Source: a virus
IMG/VR virus record: IMGVR_UViG_3300025853_000875
Location: 1-20,165 of that record
Direction: 5' to 3' (one strand)
Length of the DNA stretch: 20,165 nt
Part shown: piece after piece, positions 3,028 to 19,350 of the stretch
Numbering within the stretch: the first letter of the stretch is position 1
Layout: each line of letters opens with the position of its first letter
Translations under genes and position numbers: made by a program
Notes under the pieces: model-generated
Told to the model about the DNA's origin: nothing
The model's database searches: none
The model's input: the letters and a program-made list of their open reading frames with translations, nothing else

Positions 3028-3999
3028 ATGTCTAGTTTGCTTACCCAATTGGGTCAAAAAACCAAAGTAGAGCTTGATAAGAAGCTTGCCCTCGCAGGAG
3101 GAACAATGACCGGAGCTTTGACGCTCTCAGGTGCTCCTACTGCCTCCCTTCACGCTGCCACTAAGGCTTATGTTGATAGTGCTTCTGACACTTCAGCTCT
3201 TCAAACCGAAGTAGATGCTACTCAAACTGGTGCCGGTCTTGGTACTGACGGTTCTTATTCCGCTAACGGTTCGACCAACTATCTCGGTTCTGTAGCCAGC
3301 CTTAAAGCTGCTGACGAAGCTCTTGATAGCCAACTTAAAACTGTTGCTGACGCTGTTGCTTCTAACGATTCTGACATCTCGACTCTTCAGTCCAATGTTA
3401 GCTCCAATGATAGTGACATCGCTACCTTGCAATCCAATGTGTCGTCTAATGACAGTGATATTTCTTCACTTCAATCTGATGTTAGCACTTTGCAAAGCAA
3501 TGTCTCATCGAATGATTCGGACATCTCCACCCTTCAAAGCAATGTTTCCAGCAACGACACAGACATCTCTGCTCTGCAAACTCAAGCTGGTTCCCTCGCT
3601 TCCGACGGTAACTCCGCTTCCTTCTCCGGTAACATCAGTGCTGCCAACGCTACTTTCAGCGGTAACTTGACTGTTAATGGTACTACGACTTCCGTAAACA
3701 CCACTAACATCGATGTAACTGACAGCATCATGAACCTTTCTAAAGGTGCTGCTTCCGGAACCAATGCTTCCAATGACGGAGGTTTTGTTGTTGAGCGTGG
3801 TTCTTCCGAAAGCAATGTTGCTTTTATCTGGGACGAAGGAGACGACAAGTTCAAAGTTCTCTCTACTTCCGCAACAGCTGCTGCTACTGACATCTCTTCG
3901 ACTGACGGTAGTGCTTCGCTTGCAGACTTAGACGCTAACCTCTACCACAACGGTACTGAGTTAGGAACTGTTTCTGAGTTTGAAGCTGCTTTAAGCTAA
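3028..3999 (+). CDS. Long tail fibre-like structural protein with coiled-coil repeats
   Basis: This 323-residue protein has three parts. Residues 1-50 share the MSSLLTQLGQK tag with the upstream gene and include GGTMTGALTLSGAPTAS and AATKAYVD, a typical fibre opening. Residues ~110-184 are 14-residue repeats of the form ISTLQSNVSSNDSD, which look like a trimeric coiled-coil stalk. Residues ~195-323 hold the NATFSGNLTVNG and DSIMNLSKG motifs, then NDGGFVVERG and AFIWDEGDDKFKV. I know this motif set from fibre and baseplate-associated proteins of many aquatic phages. Codons differ from its neighbours (many GCT, TCC, AAC, TCT), as in a highly expressed virion protein. AAGGA lies about 10 bases before the start. 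A strong terminator follows the stop. Confidence 0.75.
   Translation: MSSLLTQLGQKTKVELDKKLALAGGTMTGALTLSGAPTASLHAATKAYVDSASDTSALQTEVDATQTGAGLGTDGSYSANGSTNYLGSVASLKAADEALDSQLKTVADAVASNDSDISTLQSNVSSNDSDIATLQSNVSSNDSDISSLQSDVSTLQSNVSSNDSDISTLQSNVSSNDTDISALQTQAGSLASDGNSASFSGNISAANATFSGNLTVNGTTTSVNTTNIDVTDSIMNLSKGAASGTNASNDGGFVVERGSSESNVAFIWDEGDDKFKVLSTSATAAATDISSTDGSASLADLDANLYHNGTELGTVSEFEAALS
3358..3579 (+). repeat. In-frame 42-nt repeats encoding coiled-coil stalk
   Basis: Inside the long fibre gene, units of about 42 bases encode 14-residue steps with the pattern I(S/A)xLQSNVSSNDSD, four times and then a fifth partial step. One unit is longer by 7 residues (SDVSTLQ), which keeps the heptad phase. 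Third-codon-position differences between units show the array is not a recent perfect duplication. Confidence 0.8.
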
Positions 4000-11420: not shown

Positions 11421-13806
11421 AGACCGAGAGCATTCTGCGAACAACGAGAGAGAATGCGATACGAACGAAGTGAGAAAGGGTCATGTGTGGAGGATGCGTG
11501 AGTGGGGACGAGCACAATATCGTAACCGACAAGCCAAGCTGAGAGCAGAAGGAGAGTCATCTAAGACTGAAGCTAGTAAGCGTATGTTACGGGTCATGGC
11601 TCCAAGGTTAGGCAAGAGGGTAGAGGATTTCATGTACACATTCGGAGGTAACACTGAACACACAACACCGTTGTTCCTTACCTTCATATTAGATATGTGT
11701 CCGTATCAGGTGTCCGCTACTGCTATTCAAACATTCCTTGATAACCTCCAGTTCAACTTACCTGTCGGTAGAATGGCGTACAAGATAGGTAAAGCATTTG
11801 AGAACCAAGCACGGTGGAACAAAGCATTAGAGACTCTGCATCCGAACAAGCTTGATTTGTTAGCACTGGATGATCGATCAAAGGCGATGAAGCTGAAGCA
11901 GTTCTACGACTATGAGGAGGAACGGTTCACGCTGTGGGATAGTAAGTGTAAGACAGCTCTTGGTGCTTGGTTATTAGAAGAGATACGGATCGAGACTGGA
12001 CTGTTTGAGATAGGATTCAATACGGGTGGACAGAAGAGCTATAAACCGGAACGCATAGTCTTACCTACTGCACAGTTTAAAGATTGGATACAACGGTTTG
12101 ATGCGTGGAAGGAGACTACTCGTGTCTTCAAGATGGCATTACCTGACCGTCCTGTTGATTGGTACGGATTAGTAGGTGGTGGGTACAGCGTCAAGCACAT
12201 GCCTCCACAAAAGTTCATAACAGGTAAGCCAGTTCAGTGGTTCCAAGATTACGAGAAGAGTTACGACCACGCTTTTTCTGCTGTCAATAAGTTGCAACAG
12301 GTAGAGTGGCAGATCAATAGCGACATGTTAGAGATCGTCTTGAAGTGTTGGGAGAACGAGAGAGTTGTTGGTAATATACCTAACTTCGGTACGATACCTG
12401 AACAACCGAGGTACACAGGTGATTGTCCGCATGAGTTACGAGCTTGGAAGTTAAAACAGAAAGATATTAAACAAGCGAATGACGCTAACAACAGCAAGCG
12501 GTATCAAACTTGTAGGATTCTACACCTAGCTAAGATATATAAGAGCTGGGATAAGATATACTTCCCGTATCGTTGCGACTATCGTGGTAGGGTTTATGCT
12601 TTACCGTACTATTTACACCCACAAGGCACTGACTTAGCTAAGAGTTTGTTAGACTTTAAGAACGGTCAGCAGGTGGTGGATGAGCAGGACTTAGAAGCTG
12701 TACTTGTACACGGAGCGAACATGTGGGGAGTGAAGGGTACGATAGACGAACGGTTAGAGTGGGTTGAGAAACGCAAGGAGTTTATATTGGAAGCAGCGAA
12801 TGATCCACACGGTACTGACTGGTGGACTGAAGCATCCGATCCGTTCTGTTTTCTGCGGTTCTGTTTAGAGTACAAGAAGTTTACGGAAGAGGGCTACGGA
12901 TATGTTAGCTACTTACCTGTAAGACAAGACTGTAGTAACAACGGTATGCAGATACTATCTTTGTTATTACGAGATAAGAATACCGGACGCATGTGCAACC
13001 TGGTAGAGGAAGACAAAGCTAATGATATGTACACTGAGTTTGCAGATATGGTGTACGATGAGATGAGACAAGACGGTGGTACACTAGCACAGAGCTGGAT
13101 GAGGTACGGGTTCACGAGGAAGCACGCTAAGTTAGCAGTGATGAACAGACCTTACGGTGCTACTCACTACAACTTGGTACAAGATTTATTTAAAAGCATA
13201 GGAGTCAATCATCCGTGGACCAGTACAGGAGAGATGCTTACCTCTGTTATATGGATCAGTAAGATCGTCAACCGATTAGCTAACCAAGTGTGTCGCCCTG
13301 TTAATAAAGTGATGAACTTTTTAAGAGAGAGTGTACGAGCTTTAGGTTACGACTCAGCTATTACTTGGACAACACCAACAGGATTTAAAGTGGTACAAAG
13401 CTACCGTAAATATAAGAAGGTAGAGGTACAATCTGTCTTTCAAAACCTAAGCGTTGCTATACAAGCAGATGAATTAGATAACAAGATTGATCCAAAGGGA
13501 CAAGGCAACGCAGTGACTGCTAACTTTATCCACAGTCTAGACGCTTGTATTGTACATCAAGTAGCTAATGAGGTTGACTTTGACTTAGCAACTATACATG
13601 ACTGCTTTGTGACTCACGCTTGTAATGTACGAAAATGTAATACGATTGTACGACAGATGTACGCAAAAACTTTTTCTGTTGATCTCCTGACTGAGTTCCG
13701 AATGGAGCAAATCAACATGAACCCGACCGCAGAACTTCCATCCGTGCCGGAACTTGGTGACTTAGATGTTACCGCAGTAAAGCGTATGAAGTATCTGTTG
13801 TCTTAA
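11413..13806 (+). CDS. T7-type single-subunit RNA polymerase
   Basis: This 797-residue enzyme (T7: 883) transcribes the replication and late genes from phage promoters. Catalytic residues align with those of T7: Asp506 in motif A (VRQDCSNNGMQ), Lys573 and Tyr581 in motif B (KLAVMNRPYGAT; T7 Lys631 and Tyr639, same 8-residue spacing), and Asp730 in motif C (TIHDCF). CDYRGRVYALPYYLHPQGTD (388-407) and NFIHSLD (704-710) are also conserved. Motif A departs from the usual DG(T/S)C(N/S)GLQH: Cys follows the Asp, Asn replaces the Cys, and Ile the final His. The N-terminal domain is short. The first ~25 residues come from DNA holding a copy of the dispersed repeat. No strong ribosome binding site is seen; the start overlaps the upstream gene. 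Confidence 0.95.
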   Translation: MSEDREHSANNERECDTNEVRKGHVWRMREWGRAQYRNRQAKLRAEGESSKTEASKRMLRVMAPRLGKRVEDFMYTFGGNTEHTTPLFLTFILDMCPYQVSATAIQTFLDNLQFNLPVGRMAYKIGKAFENQARWNKALETLHPNKLDLLALDDRSKAMKLKQFYDYEEERFTLWDSKCKTALGAWLLEEIRIETGLFEIGFNTGGQKSYKPERIVLPTAQFKDWIQRFDAWKETTRVFKMALPDRPVDWYGLVGGGYSVKHMPPQKFITGKPVQWFQDYEKSYDHAFSAVNKLQQVEWQINSDMLEIVLKCWENERVVGNIPNFGTIPEQPRYTGDCPHELRAWKLKQKDIKQANDANNSKRYQTCRILHLAKIYKSWDKIYFPYRCDYRGRVYALPYYLHPQGTDLAKSLLDFKNGQQVVDEQDLEAVLVHGANMWGVKGTIDERLEWVEKRKEFILEAANDPHGTDWWTEASDPFCFLRFCLEYKKFTEEGYGYVSYLPVRQDCSNNGMQILSLLLRDKNTGRMCNLVEEDKANDMYTEFADMVYDEMRQDGGTLAQSWMRYGFTRKHAKLAVMNRPYGATHYNLVQDLFKSIGVNHPWTSTGEMLTSVIWISKIVNRLANQVCRPVNKVMNFLRESVRALGYDSAITWTTPTGFKVVQSYRKYKKVEVQSVFQNLSVAIQADELDNKIDPKGQGNAVTANFIHSLDACIVHQVANEVDFDLATIHDCFVTHACNVRKCNTIVRQMYAKTFSVDLLTEFRMEQINMNPTAELPSVPELGDLDVTAVKRMKYLLS
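11430..11474 (+). repeat. Dispersed short repeat inside the RNA polymerase N-terminus
   Basis: A perfect stem GCATTCT/AGAATGC (11430-11436 and 11451-11457) encloses a 14-nt loop (GCGAACAACGAGAG). GAACGAAGTGAG follows at 11463-11474 and is the exact reverse complement of 6046-6057. The element encodes about residues 6-21 of the polymerase (roughly EHSANNERECDTNEV), a polar, probably disordered stretch that would tolerate an insertion. Confidence 0.68.
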
Positions 13807-13826: not shown

Positions 13827-14456
13827 ATGGCTATTAAAGCACGAAAAAAACATGATATAGTAAAAGCAAAGGGTACAGCTAAGTACTGCCACCTAAACGA
13901 ACCGAACAAGAAGTTTGAAGCTGAGTACGGAGCTTGGAGTTGTGATGTCGTAATAGACAAAGAACAAGCAGACGCAATCAAAGCACAGCTTCGTCCGTTG
14001 TACGAGCAGGAGTTGCGTGATGTACAGGAAGCTAACGCAGGTAAGAAGATTCAACAGCGTGACTTTCCGATTGATGAAGTTGACGGTGGGTTTGTACTTA
14101 AAGCAAAGCTGAAAGCTGGCGGTCGTCGTAAGGATGGTAGTGAGTATCACTTGAGTGTACCGCTGTATGATTCAGTAGCTAAACCACTTGATCCAGATGT
14201 TAAAGTATGGGGAGGTAGTAAAGTAGTAGTAGCTTTCCGTCCTCGTTTTTACTACACCTCGATGGTAGGGTTTGGAGTTGGTTTTGACTTGCAAGCTGTA
14301 CAGGTACTGGAAGTTGCAGGAGGTGGTATGTCATCTGTAGCTGCTAGTTCGTTCGGATTTACTGAAGAAGAGAGTGGATTTGTAAACGGTGGTGAAAACT
14401 TAGAGGGTGGATTCGATGCGGAAGAGACGGAAGAAGAGGTCATCGCCAACTTCTAG
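13827..14456 (+). CDS. Single-stranded DNA binding protein (T7 gp2.5-like)
   Basis: This 209-residue protein (T7 gp2.5: 232) coats single-stranded DNA during replication and recombination and contacts the polymerase and primase/helicase through its C-terminus. The body is beta-rich, as expected for an OB fold, with GTAKYCHLNEPNKKFEAEYG near the start, GGRRKDGSEYHLSVPLYDS (~97-115) and KVVVAFRPRFYY (~131-142). The last ~30 residues are very acidic and end in phenylalanine (EETEEEVIANF). The family needs this terminal aromatic. It overlaps the endonuclease I gene by 41 bases, so the two are produced together. A 20-base gap separates it from RNA polymerase, with no clear promoter. Confidence 0.88.
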   Translation: MAIKARKKHDIVKAKGTAKYCHLNEPNKKFEAEYGAWSCDVVIDKEQADAIKAQLRPLYEQELRDVQEANAGKKIQQRDFPIDEVDGGFVLKAKLKAGGRRKDGSEYHLSVPLYDSVAKPLDPDVKVWGGSKVVVAFRPRFYYTSMVGFGVGFDLQAVQVLEVAGGGMSSVAASSFGFTEEESGFVNGGENLEGGFDAEETEEEVIANF

Positions 14457-14916
14457 ATACCGTAGCGGATTCGAGCAAACCTTAGCTAACCAGCTGAAGC
14501 GTAGTGGTGTTGCTTTTGAGTACGAAACAGTAAAGTTAGAGTACAGAAAGATAGCAACTTACACTCCCGACTTCATACTACCCAACGGCATCATCATTGA
14601 AGCCAAGGGTTTATGGACTGTGGAGGACCGAACGAAGCATTTACTAGTGCGGGAACAACATCCACACTTAGACATCCGACTAGTATTTATGAATGCTTTT
14701 AATAAGATTCGGAAAGGAAGCAACACTACCTACGCTCGTTGGTGCGAAAAGAAAAATATACTATATGCAAATAAAACTATACCAAAATCATGGCTTTCAC
14801 AAACACACACCAACCCTGTCCAAAGTGCGGATCAAGTGATGCAAGAGCCACTAACGACGACGGAAGCTGGCATTGTTTCAGCTGTAACAGTCACGCTGGA
14901 GGAGGAGAACGAGTGA
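14416..14916 (+). CDS. Endonuclease I, Holliday junction resolvase (T7 gp3-like)
   Basis: This 166-residue enzyme cuts branched DNA, resolves packaging intermediates and helps degrade host DNA. The PD-(D/E)XK catalytic residues match T7: Glu20 (SGFEQTL), Glu35 (FEYE), Asp52 (YTPDFILPNG), Glu62 and Lys64 (IIIEAKGLW); REQHPHLDIRLVF also agrees closely. The ATG at 14416 is preceded by AGAGGG; a GTG at 14407 is less likely. Homology to T7 (149 residues) fades around residue 127. The last ~42 residues are encoded by DNA that in another frame codes for the primase zinc finger, so this tail is probably an overprinted extension. It also overlaps SSB at its 5' end. Confidence 0.92.
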   Translation: MRKRRKKRSSPTSRYRSGFEQTLANQLKRSGVAFEYETVKLEYRKIATYTPDFILPNGIIIEAKGLWTVEDRTKHLLVREQHPHLDIRLVFMNAFNKIRKGSNTTYARWCEKKNILYANKTIPKSWLSQTHTNPVQSADQVMQEPLTTTEAGIVSAVTVTLEEENE

Positions 14917-16373
14917 GCGAACCAACACCGAGAGAGTTTGTCAACGGATCACCTCAAGCAATAGCACGAAGAAACCTAACAGAAGATACTTGTCGGAAGT
15001 GGGGGTATTGGATGGGAACTGCGGACGGTCAACCTGTGCAGATAGCTAACTATAAAACAAGAGACGGTAAGACATGTGCACAGAAGCTCAGGTTTGCTGA
15101 CAAAAGTTTCAGAGTTAGAGGAGAACTGATAGGACTGTACGGTCAGCACTTGTGGCGAGACGGAGGTAGACGAGTGGTTGTGTGTGAGGGAGAGGTAGAT
15201 GCGTTGAGTATCAGTCAAGCTTTCGATAACAAGTGGCCTGTCGTTAGTGTACCTAACGGAGCTGGAGCAGCTAAGAAGTTTATAGCACAAGCCATCGATT
15301 GGCTGGATCGTTATGAACAAGTTGTCTTCTGCTTTGATATGGATGATGTCGGACGAAAGGGAGCAGCGGAATGTGCAGCACTCTTGACACCTGGCAAAGC
15401 ACACATCGCAGAGCTACCACTAAAGGATGCGAACGACATGCTTGTTGCTAACAGAAGTAAAGAGTTAGTGCAGTGCTTGTTCGACGCTCGTGAGTACAGA
15501 CCAGACGGTATCGTAAACGGTAAGGAACTCTGGGATGTTATCTCTCATAAGGAGGAACATAAAAGCAAACCTTATCCATTCATCGGTCTTAACAGTATCA
15601 CTCACGGTATGAGGTTGGGTGAACTTGTAACTGTTACTGCTGGTAGTGGTATCGGCAAGAGTTTGTTCTGTCGTGAGATAGCACACCATCTGTTAGGACT
15701 AGGTGAGACTGTTGGTTACATAGCTCTTGAAGAATCTGTCAGGCGTACAGCGTTGGGTATCCTTGGTATCCACATGAACAAACCGCTACACCTCGACGAT
15801 GATATGTTAGATGAGAAGGAGATGAAACCTGCGTTCGATAAGACAGTAGGTAACGGTAAGTTCTACACCTACGATCACTTCGGGAGTATGGAGTCCGACA
15901 ATCTGTTATCTAAGATTAGGTACTTAATTAAAGGATTCGATTGTAAATGGATATTCCTAGATCACCTATCGATTGTTGTTAGTGGTATCCAAGGAGACGA
16001 TGAACGCAGATTGATTGATAATACAATGACCAAGCTACGATCTCTAGTAGAAGAGACAGGGTGCGGTATGGTATTGGTCAGTCACTTGAAGCGTGTGGAT
16101 ACAGGACATGAAGAGGGTGGGCGAGTAAGTCTGCATCACCTCCGAGGGTCTCAAGCAATCGCACAGCTATCGGACATGGTCATCGGACTTGAACGCAACC
16201 AACAAAGCGACAGACTATCCAACGAAACAAAAGTAAGAGTACTGAAGAATCGATTCAGCGGTGAGACCGGACACTGTAGTACATTGTATTACAACATAGA
16301 CACCGGACGATGCACCGAGGAAGAGAGAGCTAGTACCTTTAACGATGAAGAAACAAATAATGAACCATTCTAA
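14790..16373 (+). CDS. Primase/helicase (T7 gp4-like)
   Basis: This 527-residue bifunctional replication protein unwinds DNA 5'-3' and makes RNA primers. The zinc finger has Cys10, Cys13, Cys29 and Cys32, with CxxC-15-CxxC spacing as in T7. The TOPRIM primase core has VCEGEVDALS (131-140) and FCFDMDDVGR (180-189). The DnaB-like helicase has Walker A AGSGIGKS (284-291), Glu314/Glu315 in ALEES and Walker B WIFLDH (387-392). The acidic C-terminus ending in Phe (NNEPF) matches the T7 tail that contacts DNA polymerase. The zinc finger fixes the start at 14790; it lies wholly inside the endonuclease I gene (127-base overlap). T7 gp4A is 566 residues. No internal start for a helicase-only form is obvious. 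Confidence 0.96.
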   Translation: MAFTNTHQPCPKCGSSDARATNDDGSWHCFSCNSHAGGGERVSEPTPREFVNGSPQAIARRNLTEDTCRKWGYWMGTADGQPVQIANYKTRDGKTCAQKLRFADKSFRVRGELIGLYGQHLWRDGGRRVVVCEGEVDALSISQAFDNKWPVVSVPNGAGAAKKFIAQAIDWLDRYEQVVFCFDMDDVGRKGAAECAALLTPGKAHIAELPLKDANDMLVANRSKELVQCLFDAREYRPDGIVNGKELWDVISHKEEHKSKPYPFIGLNSITHGMRLGELVTVTAGSGIGKSLFCREIAHHLLGLGETVGYIALEESVRRTALGILGIHMNKPLHLDDDMLDEKEMKPAFDKTVGNGKFYTYDHFGSMESDNLLSKIRYLIKGFDCKWIFLDHLSIVVSGIQGDDERRLIDNTMTKLRSLVEETGCGMVLVSHLKRVDTGHEEGGRVSLHHLRGSQAIAQLSDMVIGLERNQQSDRLSNETKVRVLKNRFSGETGHCSTLYYNIDTGRCTEEERASTFNDEETNNEPF

Positions 16374-17040: not shown

Positions 17041-18887
17041 GAACACTATTCTTTGATATAGAAACAAATGCTCTTGAAGACTTCACTAATCTGACGGACT
17101 TACACACGGTACACTGCTTGTCTGTGTACGATCCAATGGTTCCGAAGATGGTGACCTTTGCAGGAGATAGTATACCGCATGGACTTAAAGCACTAGCAGA
17201 AGCAGACCGTATCGTCGGACACAATGTTATTAAGTTTGATATACCTGCACTGAAGAAGCTGTACGGATTCTCTCCACCTCTTGTTAAAGTAGTAGATACA
17301 TTGGTGATGAGTCGTTGTATCTTTTCTGACCTACGCAACGAGGACTTCGGTCGTAATAACTTCGATGATAAGTTAGTAGGTAGTCACTCACTCAAAGCTT
17401 GGGGACACCGGATGGGAAAGCAGACGAAGCTGACATACGGAGAAGAGGACGGTGCGTTCGATCACTACAACGAGGAGATGAAGAAGTACTGTGAGCGTGA
17501 TTGTATAGTTACACAGTTGTTGTACGATTATTTAATCAAGCAAGAGCCTAGTAATGTTATGATGAGTATCGAGCATTGGTTCGCATTCATCATCAGTCAA
17601 CAGGAGCGACACGGTTTTAGCTTCGATCTTGATAAAGCAGACAGACTGACAGCCAAGCTAACATCTATTCGTGCTGAGTTGAAAGATGAACTGCAACAAA
17701 TGGTAGCACCCAAGGTTGAAGAGATGAAGAGTCCAGCTGGTTGGGAGGTTGAAGGGTATACAGCACCAACTAAAGCAAAGCTAAAGTTGATCCTTAAAGA
17801 AGCAGGACTGAAACAATCTCTTGCCAACGAAGCAGTCAAGACTGGTAACAAACAAAAGACTACACTGTTTAACCCTGGTTCTCGACAACAGATAGCAGCT
17901 GCATTAGCTGACCTTGGATACGAACTACCAAAGGAACAAGATGCTACCACACCTAAAGTCGATGAGGGAGTACTGAAGAAGATCGATCATCCGATAGCAC
18001 AGAAGCTGTTAGACTATCTCCTTGTACAGAAAAGACTAGGTCAGTTAGCGGAAGGACAACAAGCGTGGTTGAAGCTAGCTAAGAACGGGCGGATACACGG
18101 AGCAGTGAATACAAATGGAGCGGTGACCGGGCGGTGTACACACAGCAATCCAAATGTAGCACAGGTTCCTGCTTGTCGTGTACCGTATGGTGAAGAGTGT
18201 CGAGGATTGTTCGGTGCGGGTAGTGGTATGAAGTTGGTGGGATGTGATGCTAGTGGTTTGGAGCTACGAATGTTAGCACATTACTTAGCATTCTACGACG
18301 GAGGGGAGTACGGAAAGATCGTAACGGAGGGAGATATACACACAGCCAATCAACAAGCTGCTGGACTGGAGACACGAGACCAAGCTAAGACATTCATCTA
18401 TGCTTTCCTATACGGAGCAGGTGATGCAAAGATTGGAGACATCGTAGGAGGTACAGCTAGACATGGACAGATGTTAAAGCGTAAGTTCCTATCCAACCTA
18501 CCAGCACTGAAGAGACTGCAACAAGACATCCACAAGAAAGTAGAGAACGGTGGTGTACTTATGGGACTGGACGGTAGGTTGTTACGCATACGCAGTAGCC
18601 ACGCAGCACTGAACATGTTACTTCAATCAGCCGGAGCAGTGTGTATGAAGGTAGCTTTGATACAGCTCTTCCATGCACTCGGTAAGAGCAGATGGCAGCA
18701 CGGTAGAGAGTACGCATTTGTTGCTAACATACACGACGAGTTCCAAGCAGAAGTAATACCACAACACGCAGAAGACTTCGGTAAGTTAGCAGTGAAAGCG
18801 ATTCGTGTAGCTGGTAAAGAACTGAAGCTGAATGTACAGTTGGACGGTGAGTACAAAGTAGGTGATAGCTGGGCGGAGACTCATTGA
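17037..18887 (+). CDS. Family A DNA polymerase with 3'-5' exonuclease (T7 gp5-like)
   Basis: This 616-residue replicative polymerase (T7: 704) has a proofreading domain with DIET (Asp7, Glu9), NVIKFDIP (Asp68) and YCERD (Asp155). The polymerase domain has motif A GCDASGLELR (402-411, Asp404), the O helix RDQAKTFIYAFLYGAG (447-462) and motif C IHDEF (565-569, Asp567). The O-helix residue matching E. coli Phe762 and T7 Tyr526 is Tyr455. In T7 a thioredoxin-binding loop lies just before FNPSSR. Here the stretch before FNPGSR (about 222-278) is some 25-30 residues shorter than in T7 and unlike it, so host thioredoxin dependence is doubtful. The start overlaps the previous gene by 4 bases. Confidence 0.96.
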   Translation: MRTLFFDIETNALEDFTNLTDLHTVHCLSVYDPMVPKMVTFAGDSIPHGLKALAEADRIVGHNVIKFDIPALKKLYGFSPPLVKVVDTLVMSRCIFSDLRNEDFGRNNFDDKLVGSHSLKAWGHRMGKQTKLTYGEEDGAFDHYNEEMKKYCERDCIVTQLLYDYLIKQEPSNVMMSIEHWFAFIISQQERHGFSFDLDKADRLTAKLTSIRAELKDELQQMVAPKVEEMKSPAGWEVEGYTAPTKAKLKLILKEAGLKQSLANEAVKTGNKQKTTLFNPGSRQQIAAALADLGYELPKEQDATTPKVDEGVLKKIDHPIAQKLLDYLLVQKRLGQLAEGQQAWLKLAKNGRIHGAVNTNGAVTGRCTHSNPNVAQVPACRVPYGEECRGLFGAGSGMKLVGCDASGLELRMLAHYLAFYDGGEYGKIVTEGDIHTANQQAAGLETRDQAKTFIYAFLYGAGDAKIGDIVGGTARHGQMLKRKFLSNLPALKRLQQDIHKKVENGGVLMGLDGRLLRIRSSHAALNMLLQSAGAVCMKVALIQLFHALGKSRWQHGREYAFVANIHDEFQAEVIPQHAEDFGKLAVKAIRVAGKELKLNVQLDGEYKVGDSWAETH

Positions 18888-18888
18888 T

Positions 18889-19350
18889 ATGGACGAAGTA
18901 CAATACGACATGTACACTACACTTGCTACAATCTACGACACACAAGACCTCACCATGCCATCATCAAACGCACAAAGGATAGGAGCAATCGCAGAGACTC
19001 GCTTCACAGCTGAATGTTTAGAGCGGGACTTTGAACCACACACACCCACAACACCTATGCCTTGGGACTTCATTGTTACTTGCCCAGCGGGAGACTTAAA
19101 GGTACAGATAAAAAGCACAAGCGTCAGAGACAAGTCAGCTTACACAGTTAACTCGTCGTGCGGTGGAGCAATAAAAGGACACATGTCTGATGATATAGAT
19201 GTTGTAGGTATTTATATAGCTCCGTTGAAGGAGTGGTGGATGATACCAAGGTACTTGATAAAGAGTAAGACGATCAAGCTGTACCCTGATAACCCAAGCA
19301 CTAGCAAATATAAACAATACCAAAACAACTGGAGCATATACTATGAGTAA
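18889..19350 (+). CDS. PD-(D/E)XK nuclease, Holliday junction resolvase-like
   Basis: The start is set at 18889, one base after the polymerase stop; the frame is open further upstream inside the polymerase gene. The product has 153 residues. Residues 28-76 carry the PD-(D/E)XK signature of small archaeal-Hjc-like or PDDEXK endonucleases: GAIAETRFTAECLER (Glu36), MPWDFIVTC (Asp60) and VQIKST (Gln73, Lys75, where Gln stands for the usual Glu, as in several members). The C-terminal half has aromatic segments (EWWMIPRYLI, NNWSIYYE). Its place between DNA polymerase and exonuclease implies a part in recombination or concatemer resolution, besides endonuclease I. Family level is fairly sure, the exact substrate is not. 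Confidence 0.72.
   Translation: MDEVQYDMYTTLATIYDTQDLTMPSSNAQRIGAIAETRFTAECLERDFEPHTPTTPMPWDFIVTCPAGDLKVQIKSTSVRDKSAYTVNSSCGGAIKGHMSDDIDVVGIYIAPLKEWWMIPRYLIKSKTIKLYPDNPSTSKYKQYQNNWSIYYE

Follow-up and report, generated by a model that had tools for sequence, protein, structure and literature searches.

Overlaps between genes on the same strand, the gp4A and gp4B forms of the T7 primase-helicase, and the gene 4.1 reading frame of T7 are all known. T7 gp4 occurs in a 63 kDa and a 56 kDa form, which are described as equimolar in PMC9198812. According to the same paper, the short form starts at codon 64 and does not contain the zinc-binding domain. The hypothetical gene 4.1 of T7 (11635-11757) is located over the zinc finger in the +1 frame relative to gene 4A, and ends with ATGA on the 4B start (11754).

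Roseophage CRP-125 and the pelagiphages HTVC109P and HTVC019P are among the closest named phages of the virus described here, with a primase identity of 47-56%. These phages share the gene order ssb, endonuclease, primase with the virus, but carry a lysozyme gene between the endonuclease and primase genes, with CRP-125 containing one small ORF more. Their endonucleases stop three to four residues after the tryptophan, and there is no overlap with the primase.

The junction of endonuclease I and primase-helicase

The window, i.e., the whole stretch of DNA that was analysed, is a 20,165-base contig of an uncultured T7-like (Autographiviridae-like) virus. Its endonuclease I gene (14416..14916, plus strand) encodes 166 amino acids, ends with TGA at 14914-14916, and is assigned by its sequence to the T7 gp3 type, a Holliday-junction resolvase family. 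ATG 14416 is most likely the start of this gene and is preferred because the codon at 14407 is GTG. The gp4A-type primase-helicase gene (14790..16373, plus strand) begins with ATG 14790 and encodes 527 amino acids. Its product matches phrog_239 (E 3.7e-187) as well as PF21268, PF13155, and PF03796, and the T7 gp4-type domain set, consisting of a CxxC...CxxC zinc finger, a TOPRIM domain, and a DnaB-like helicase domain, is complete.

A preliminary description of this DNA had as its main claim an overlap of 127 bases between the two genes, and the ends of the ORFs confirm it. The double-coding overlap extends over 14790..14916 (plus strand, 127 nt), with the endonuclease frame being +1 relative to that of the primase, and contains 41 whole endonuclease codons. 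The codons of the primase zinc finger, C10...C32 (CPKC...CFSC; 14817..14885, plus strand), lie within the overlap, including all four zinc cysteines (C10, C13, C29, and C32), as had also been claimed. The primase start is superimposed on the TGG codon of the invariant endonuclease residue Trp126 (14791..14793, plus strand), as the preceding A together with TG forms the primase ATG.

The endonuclease is matched by PF05367 (Phage_endo_I) at residues 5-132 (E 7.5e-50) and by phrog_945 (E 7.1e-51), and the match to PDB 1m0d covers residues 14-130. The residues E20, D52, E62, K64, and W126 are invariant in 35 sequences including T7, in which E20, D55, E65, and K67 are the active-site residues of endonuclease I. 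The homology to T7 gp3 had been proposed to end near residue 127, which is close to the limit of the Pfam match at 132, and a tail beyond the T7 homology is supported. This C-terminal extension comprises approximately 36-40 amino acids. In an AlphaFold2 model the endonuclease core mostly reaches a pLDDT above 90, with values below 50 for residues 139-166, and the tail is predicted to be disordered.

The endonuclease gene shares bases with both of its neighbours, the gene for the ssDNA-binding protein (SSB) at its 5' end and that for the primase at its 3' end. The gp2.5-type SSB gene (13827..14456, plus strand; PF21265, phrog_112) shares 41 nt (14416-14456) with the endonuclease gene, and in this segment the acidic C-terminal tail of the SSB (EETEEEVIANF) overprints the basic N-terminus of the endonuclease (MRKRRKKR). 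In a script-based survey, this acidic/basic overprint recurs in the rows of the clades A and B defined below in which both ends were found. Elsewhere in the window, the adjoining ORFs 2625-2963 and 3028-3999 have identical first residues (MSSLLTQLGQK), and the latter contains repeated LQSNVSSNDSDI-type units. The ORF 18862-19350 is PDDEXK_5 nuclease-like (PF11645), and its GTG start overlaps the end of the DNA polymerase gene.

Distribution and origin of the overlap

Relatives were gathered as the best 80 of 264, 158, 208, 81, and 239 matches. In the first survey, covering the best 80 of 264 matches, the endonuclease was detectable in 75 of 80 loci, and in every one of these the two genes overlap by 124-136 nt, again in the +1 frame. 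A base error or assembly artefact as the cause of the read-through is thus ruled out with near certainty, as these 75 loci among the best 80 of 264 matches keep the overlap on separate contigs. A programmed -1 frameshift from the endonuclease into the primase was also considered and rejected, as scans revealed no slippery X XXY YYZ site in the endonuclease frame between about 14700 and 14914, and no run of at least five equal bases in 14760-14920.

Of 372 sequences (371 loci and the window), those in which both genes were present and the zinc finger could be read amounted to 244 distinct loci. Among the matches listed, 127 of these loci have the endonuclease stop beyond the zinc finger, 54 within it, and 63 ahead of it; the 181 overlapping loci all use the +1 frame. 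A distinct primase body of at least 300 amino acids was available for 203 loci. Grouping those of equal state at 93% identity left 70 representatives, for which a tree was calculated with FastTree from the primase body excluding the zinc finger, with T7 as the outgroup; some outgroup branches in this tree are long. The clade membership of the 203 loci was read from this tree via hand-listed representatives.

On the 70-row tree the overlap appears as one change, defining a clade of 37 rows with a local support of 99. Judged from these sequences, it has a single origin. The overlap clade is divided in two. In clade A (17 rows, 101 loci), to which the window belongs, the endonuclease frame extends beyond the zinc finger, whereas in 17 of the 20 rows of clade B (45 loci) it stops inside. 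In all 146 loci of both clades among the matches listed, the primase start codon is formed on the TGG of endonuclease Trp126, giving ATG in 138 loci and TTG in eight. The CxxC...CxxC motif is present in 101 of 101 clade A loci among the matches listed. The eight loci with TTG as a possible primase start belong to clade B (L216, L254, and relatives) and also have an ATG further upstream, 18 codons ahead of the first cysteine. No isolated member of the overlap clade was found in 50,697 phage records, with a best primase identity of 56% for the window as the query, and of 55% (L184) and 54% (L254) for clade B queries.

The preliminary description considered the tail to be newly gained in this phage. 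This view does not hold, as the overlap is common to the whole clade. It also regarded an earlier stop in relatives, combined with a base error in this sequence, as evidence against the overlap. An earlier stop does occur in clade B, inside the zinc finger, where it is a stable lineage difference; the base error did not materialise.

The overlap accompanies the loss of the lysozyme gene that lies between the endonuclease and primase genes in several outgroups. Lysozyme (gene 3.5, PF01510) was detected in nine of ten outgroup records (2/2 and 7/8) and in none of the 16 records from the overlap clade, which are 30-47 kb long and may be fragments; the records (18 + 8) were chosen by length and clade, not at random. 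Therefore, a deletion is more likely than the simple loss of a stop codon. The loss of lysozyme alone does not create the overlap, since the outgroup fosmid phage L085 has no annotated lysozyme between endonuclease and primase and yet shows no overlap, and one of the eight outgroup records gave no lysozyme match. In the simplest account, the ancestral genome of this marine clade would have been rearranged once, most likely losing lysozyme, the end of the endonuclease, and the old primase start in a deletion. The genes would have been joined such that the invariant tryptophan codon of the endonuclease (A followed by TGG) became the start of the primase.

Constraint on the two reading frames

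The preliminary description had stated that both frames are constrained and had suggested examining substitution patterns across relatives. Double coding with constraint on both frames is supported by synonymous suppression and by codon randomisation, and clades A and B differ in the synonymous rate of the primase in accordance with where their endonuclease stops. Relative to the rest of the gene, this rate is 0.46 for codons 2-19, 0.43 for codons 20-32, and 0.12 for the linker in clade A (82 neighbour pairs). In clade B (23 neighbour pairs), it is 0.27 for the double-coding codons 2-19, then 1.11 and 0.97 for the segments at and beyond the endonuclease stop. For pairs of close relatives, the ratio of overlap to rest was 0.39, 0.47, 0.38, and 0.26 in four groups of clade A. 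Among clade A pairs with a protein identity of 70-90%, in which third positions are near saturation, the suppression is slight, with a ratio of 0.91 (p 0.17). Changes in the linker are distributed over the three primase codon positions as 78/55/40 in clade A, which is how changes would be ordered under the endonuclease frame, and as 26/30/59 in clade B, which is the primase order; counts for 300 codons from the rest of the gene, unaligned across indels, were left out of this comparison. The difference between the clades has a chi-square p of 2e-6 with no correction for relatedness, and since near relatives are not independent, chi-square and Poisson figures overstate the significance.

In a codon randomisation based on the primase amino acids and codon usage, 8.3 of 17 clade A rows, 23.4 of 33 outgroup rows, and 12.5 of 20 clade B rows were expected to have a +1 frame that is open through the zinc finger; the observed numbers are 17, 22, and three, respectively. 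Clade A keeps the +1 frame open, and clade B retains its stop. The amino acids of the window itself give an expected openness of 1.0, i.e., its open frame is forced, and hence the evidence beyond chance comes from the relatives and not from the window sequence alone. Few residues of the zinc finger and linker are L, I, V, or M, so that the +1 frame is partly open by default and its stops tend to coincide with the Met or Val of the linker, which counts against a selective explanation. The endonuclease stop of clade B (e.g., in L184 at about position 1550) is made by a valine codon of the primase, which is GTA in 31 of 31 cases; elsewhere, GTA accounts for 331 of 1230 valine codons. This is a conserved silent codon that holds a stop in the other frame.

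An OLGenie-like class count covering the entire overlap did not detect constraint on the residues of the tail (NN/NS 1.02): primase-altering changes are not preferentially silent in the endonuclease frame, which counts against a functional tail. The values for the clade A segments are 0.62, 1.17, and 0.90, and those for the clade B segments without double coding, which served as controls, are 0.55 and 0.97, a scatter that makes the outcome of this estimator either negative or uninformative. Changes that are silent in the primase nearly always hit codon position 2 of the endonuclease, which sets the residue class. A loose constraint on the composition of the tail rather than on its exact sequence would therefore fit the data.

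Two further explanations were weighed against a coding role of the endonuclease frame. Signals at the RNA level, such as start context, Shine-Dalgarno (SD) sequence, or structure, could suppress synonymous changes. The first codons of genes are often constrained, and the linker minimum of 0.12 contains the SD. However, codons 20-32 of the zinc finger lie apart from both starts and still differ between clade A (0.43) and clade B (1.11). RNA structure as a cause was rejected, as the folds of three segments are ordinary (z -0.37, 0.72, and 0.42), and RNA-level signals as a whole are considered improbable. Alternatively, the tail may be translated but functionless, as a neutral read-through that has been tolerated ever since the genes were fused in the ancestor. 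The predicted disorder of the tail and the NN/NS near 1 are in line with this notion, as are its varying length between clades A and B and also within B, and the roseophage and pelagiphage endonucleases, which manage with three to four residues past the tryptophan. Against it stand the synonymous suppression in the primase, which ends at the endonuclease stop in clade B and continues in clade A, and the retention of the clade B stop by its GTA codon and closed frame. A functionless tail seems rather unlikely. Constraint along the endonuclease frame is shown by the sequences. The two sister clades differ in how far the endonuclease reaches into the primase, making the cost of double coding directly measurable in the same zinc finger. 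They provide a natural experiment on the mutual constraint of two overlapping genes.

The start codon on the endonuclease stop and its counterparts in T7

The primase start had been described as immovable downstream without loss of the zinc finger. This is correct for the primase, but an in-frame GTG at 14913-14915, which the preliminary description missed, lies on the endonuclease stop directly after the zinc finger (primase codon 42), has a strong ribosome-binding site, and matches the start of the zinc-finger-less T7 gp4B. The GTG shares the sequence GTGA with the endonuclease TGA and would initiate a proposed helicase-only short form (14913..16373, plus strand), equivalent to gp4B. The SD-like AGGAGG (14900..14905, plus strand) is located 7 nt upstream, and its bases contribute to GGG when read as primase and to EEE when read as endonuclease. 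The anti-SD duplex energy is -12.1 for GTG 14913 and -11.6 for T7 gp4B, while gp4A of the window has no SD (+1.6). Among the 32 start sites of the window that were scored, just one other, at 2374, also reaches -12.1. Most gene starts in the window, including those of the RNA polymerase, the ssDNA-binding protein, and the DNA polymerase, have a weak SD, and 2374 and 14913 stand out. As SDs are weak at most genes of this phage, including gp4A, SD strength may matter less in the host.

Among the matches listed, ATG or GTG is placed on the endonuclease stop in 91 of 101 clade A loci, and the anti-SD energy at this start is -5 or lower in 89 of the 91 (median -9.3). This start and its SD are thus conserved in the clade A sequences. 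The remaining ten of the 101 loci have a non-start codon at the stop, which counts against coupling. Among the representatives, the median best SD of linker starts is -8.8 in clade A and -0.9 in clade B, in which 16 of 20 rows have a linker ATG.

The overlap could be old and double-coding, with the coincidence of stop and internal start being passive and no short helicase being made or needed. This alternative is serious, because a stop in the +1 frame requires a codon pair NTG-A or NTA-R, of which there are few in the linker, and the only suitable residue there is Met or Val. The open frame of the window is forced by its composition, the start codon is lost in the ten clade A loci mentioned above, and the first +1 stop falls on a start in six of 33 outgroup rows, equal to the expectation of 5.2. 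In clade A, by contrast, the first +1 stop falls on ATG or GTG in 11 of 17 rows, with 3.0 expected from codon randomisation. The strong SD of the clade A starts, unlike the situation in clade B, also speaks against a passive coincidence, as does the presence of ATG or GTG in most clade A loci. Furthermore, a valine at the stop-overlapping site of clade A is encoded by GTG in 40 of 41 cases, compared with 664 of 3182 valine codons elsewhere. A passive coincidence retains an appreciable, though minor, share of the probability. The best reading, held with slightly more confidence than doubt, is that termination of the endonuclease is coupled to re-initiation of the helicase-only form.

According to the proposed mechanism, ribosomes translating the endonuclease would continue through the zinc finger in the +1 frame and add the disordered tail. 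In the lineage of the window, the frame would be held open up to the internal in-frame GTG or ATG and its SD just past the zinc finger, i.e., the equivalent of the T7 gp4B start. Termination at GTGA or ATGA could then feed re-initiation of the helicase-only isoform, and the tail would occupy both the frame and the slot of T7 gene 4.1. The explanation as a whole, combining the ancestral junction, the tail through the zinc finger, and the coupled helicase-only start, is considered probable. It is more speculative, and on present evidence doubtful, that the recombination nuclease acts as a translational governor in the gene 4.1 slot. Each of its terminations would deliver a ribosome to the helicase-only start and thereby fix the ratio of endonuclease to helicase isoform. 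The tail, with its acidic end in which the SD itself encodes the glutamates, would be maintained as part of the device. A leader whose termination feeds a helicase-only start would offer a possible reason for the unexplained gene 4.1 frame of T7.

The overlap of endonuclease and primase is not named in the titles and abstract openings covered by a literature search that lacked most subscription papers. Neither is a neighbouring replication gene that fills the gene 4.1 frame as far as the start of the putative isoform and for which a sister clade provides the control; the evidence for novelty is correspondingly weak. Unidirectional overlaps formed by stop loss or start shift (e.g., PMC3887535) are likewise on the same strand and involve replacement of a stop and a start. 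In comparison with this class, the overlap of the window is long (124-136 nt in relatives), and the start located on the stop would be that of an isoform, not the first start of the gene.

The closest counterpart is T7. The window endonuclease and T7 gene 3 endonuclease I have the family, the active-site residues, and the C-terminal tryptophan helix in common. The T7 tail consists of about 20 residues encoded by its own DNA and is followed by the lysozyme gene, whereas the tail in the window is read from the primase zinc finger. As in T7 4A/4B, an in-frame start with an SD directly follows the primase zinc finger, and AGGAGG precedes the internal start in both; gp4A of the window has no SD of its own, unlike that of T7. 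As in T7 gene 4.1, a +1 ORF over the zinc finger stops on the internal start, with GTGA in the window and ATGA in T7. In T7, this ORF is a separate hypothetical gene of 40 codons, whereas in the window it forms the C-terminus of the endonuclease encoded upstream. In terms of sequence, the tail of the endonuclease is the reading frame of gene 4.1, joined to the gene that precedes it.
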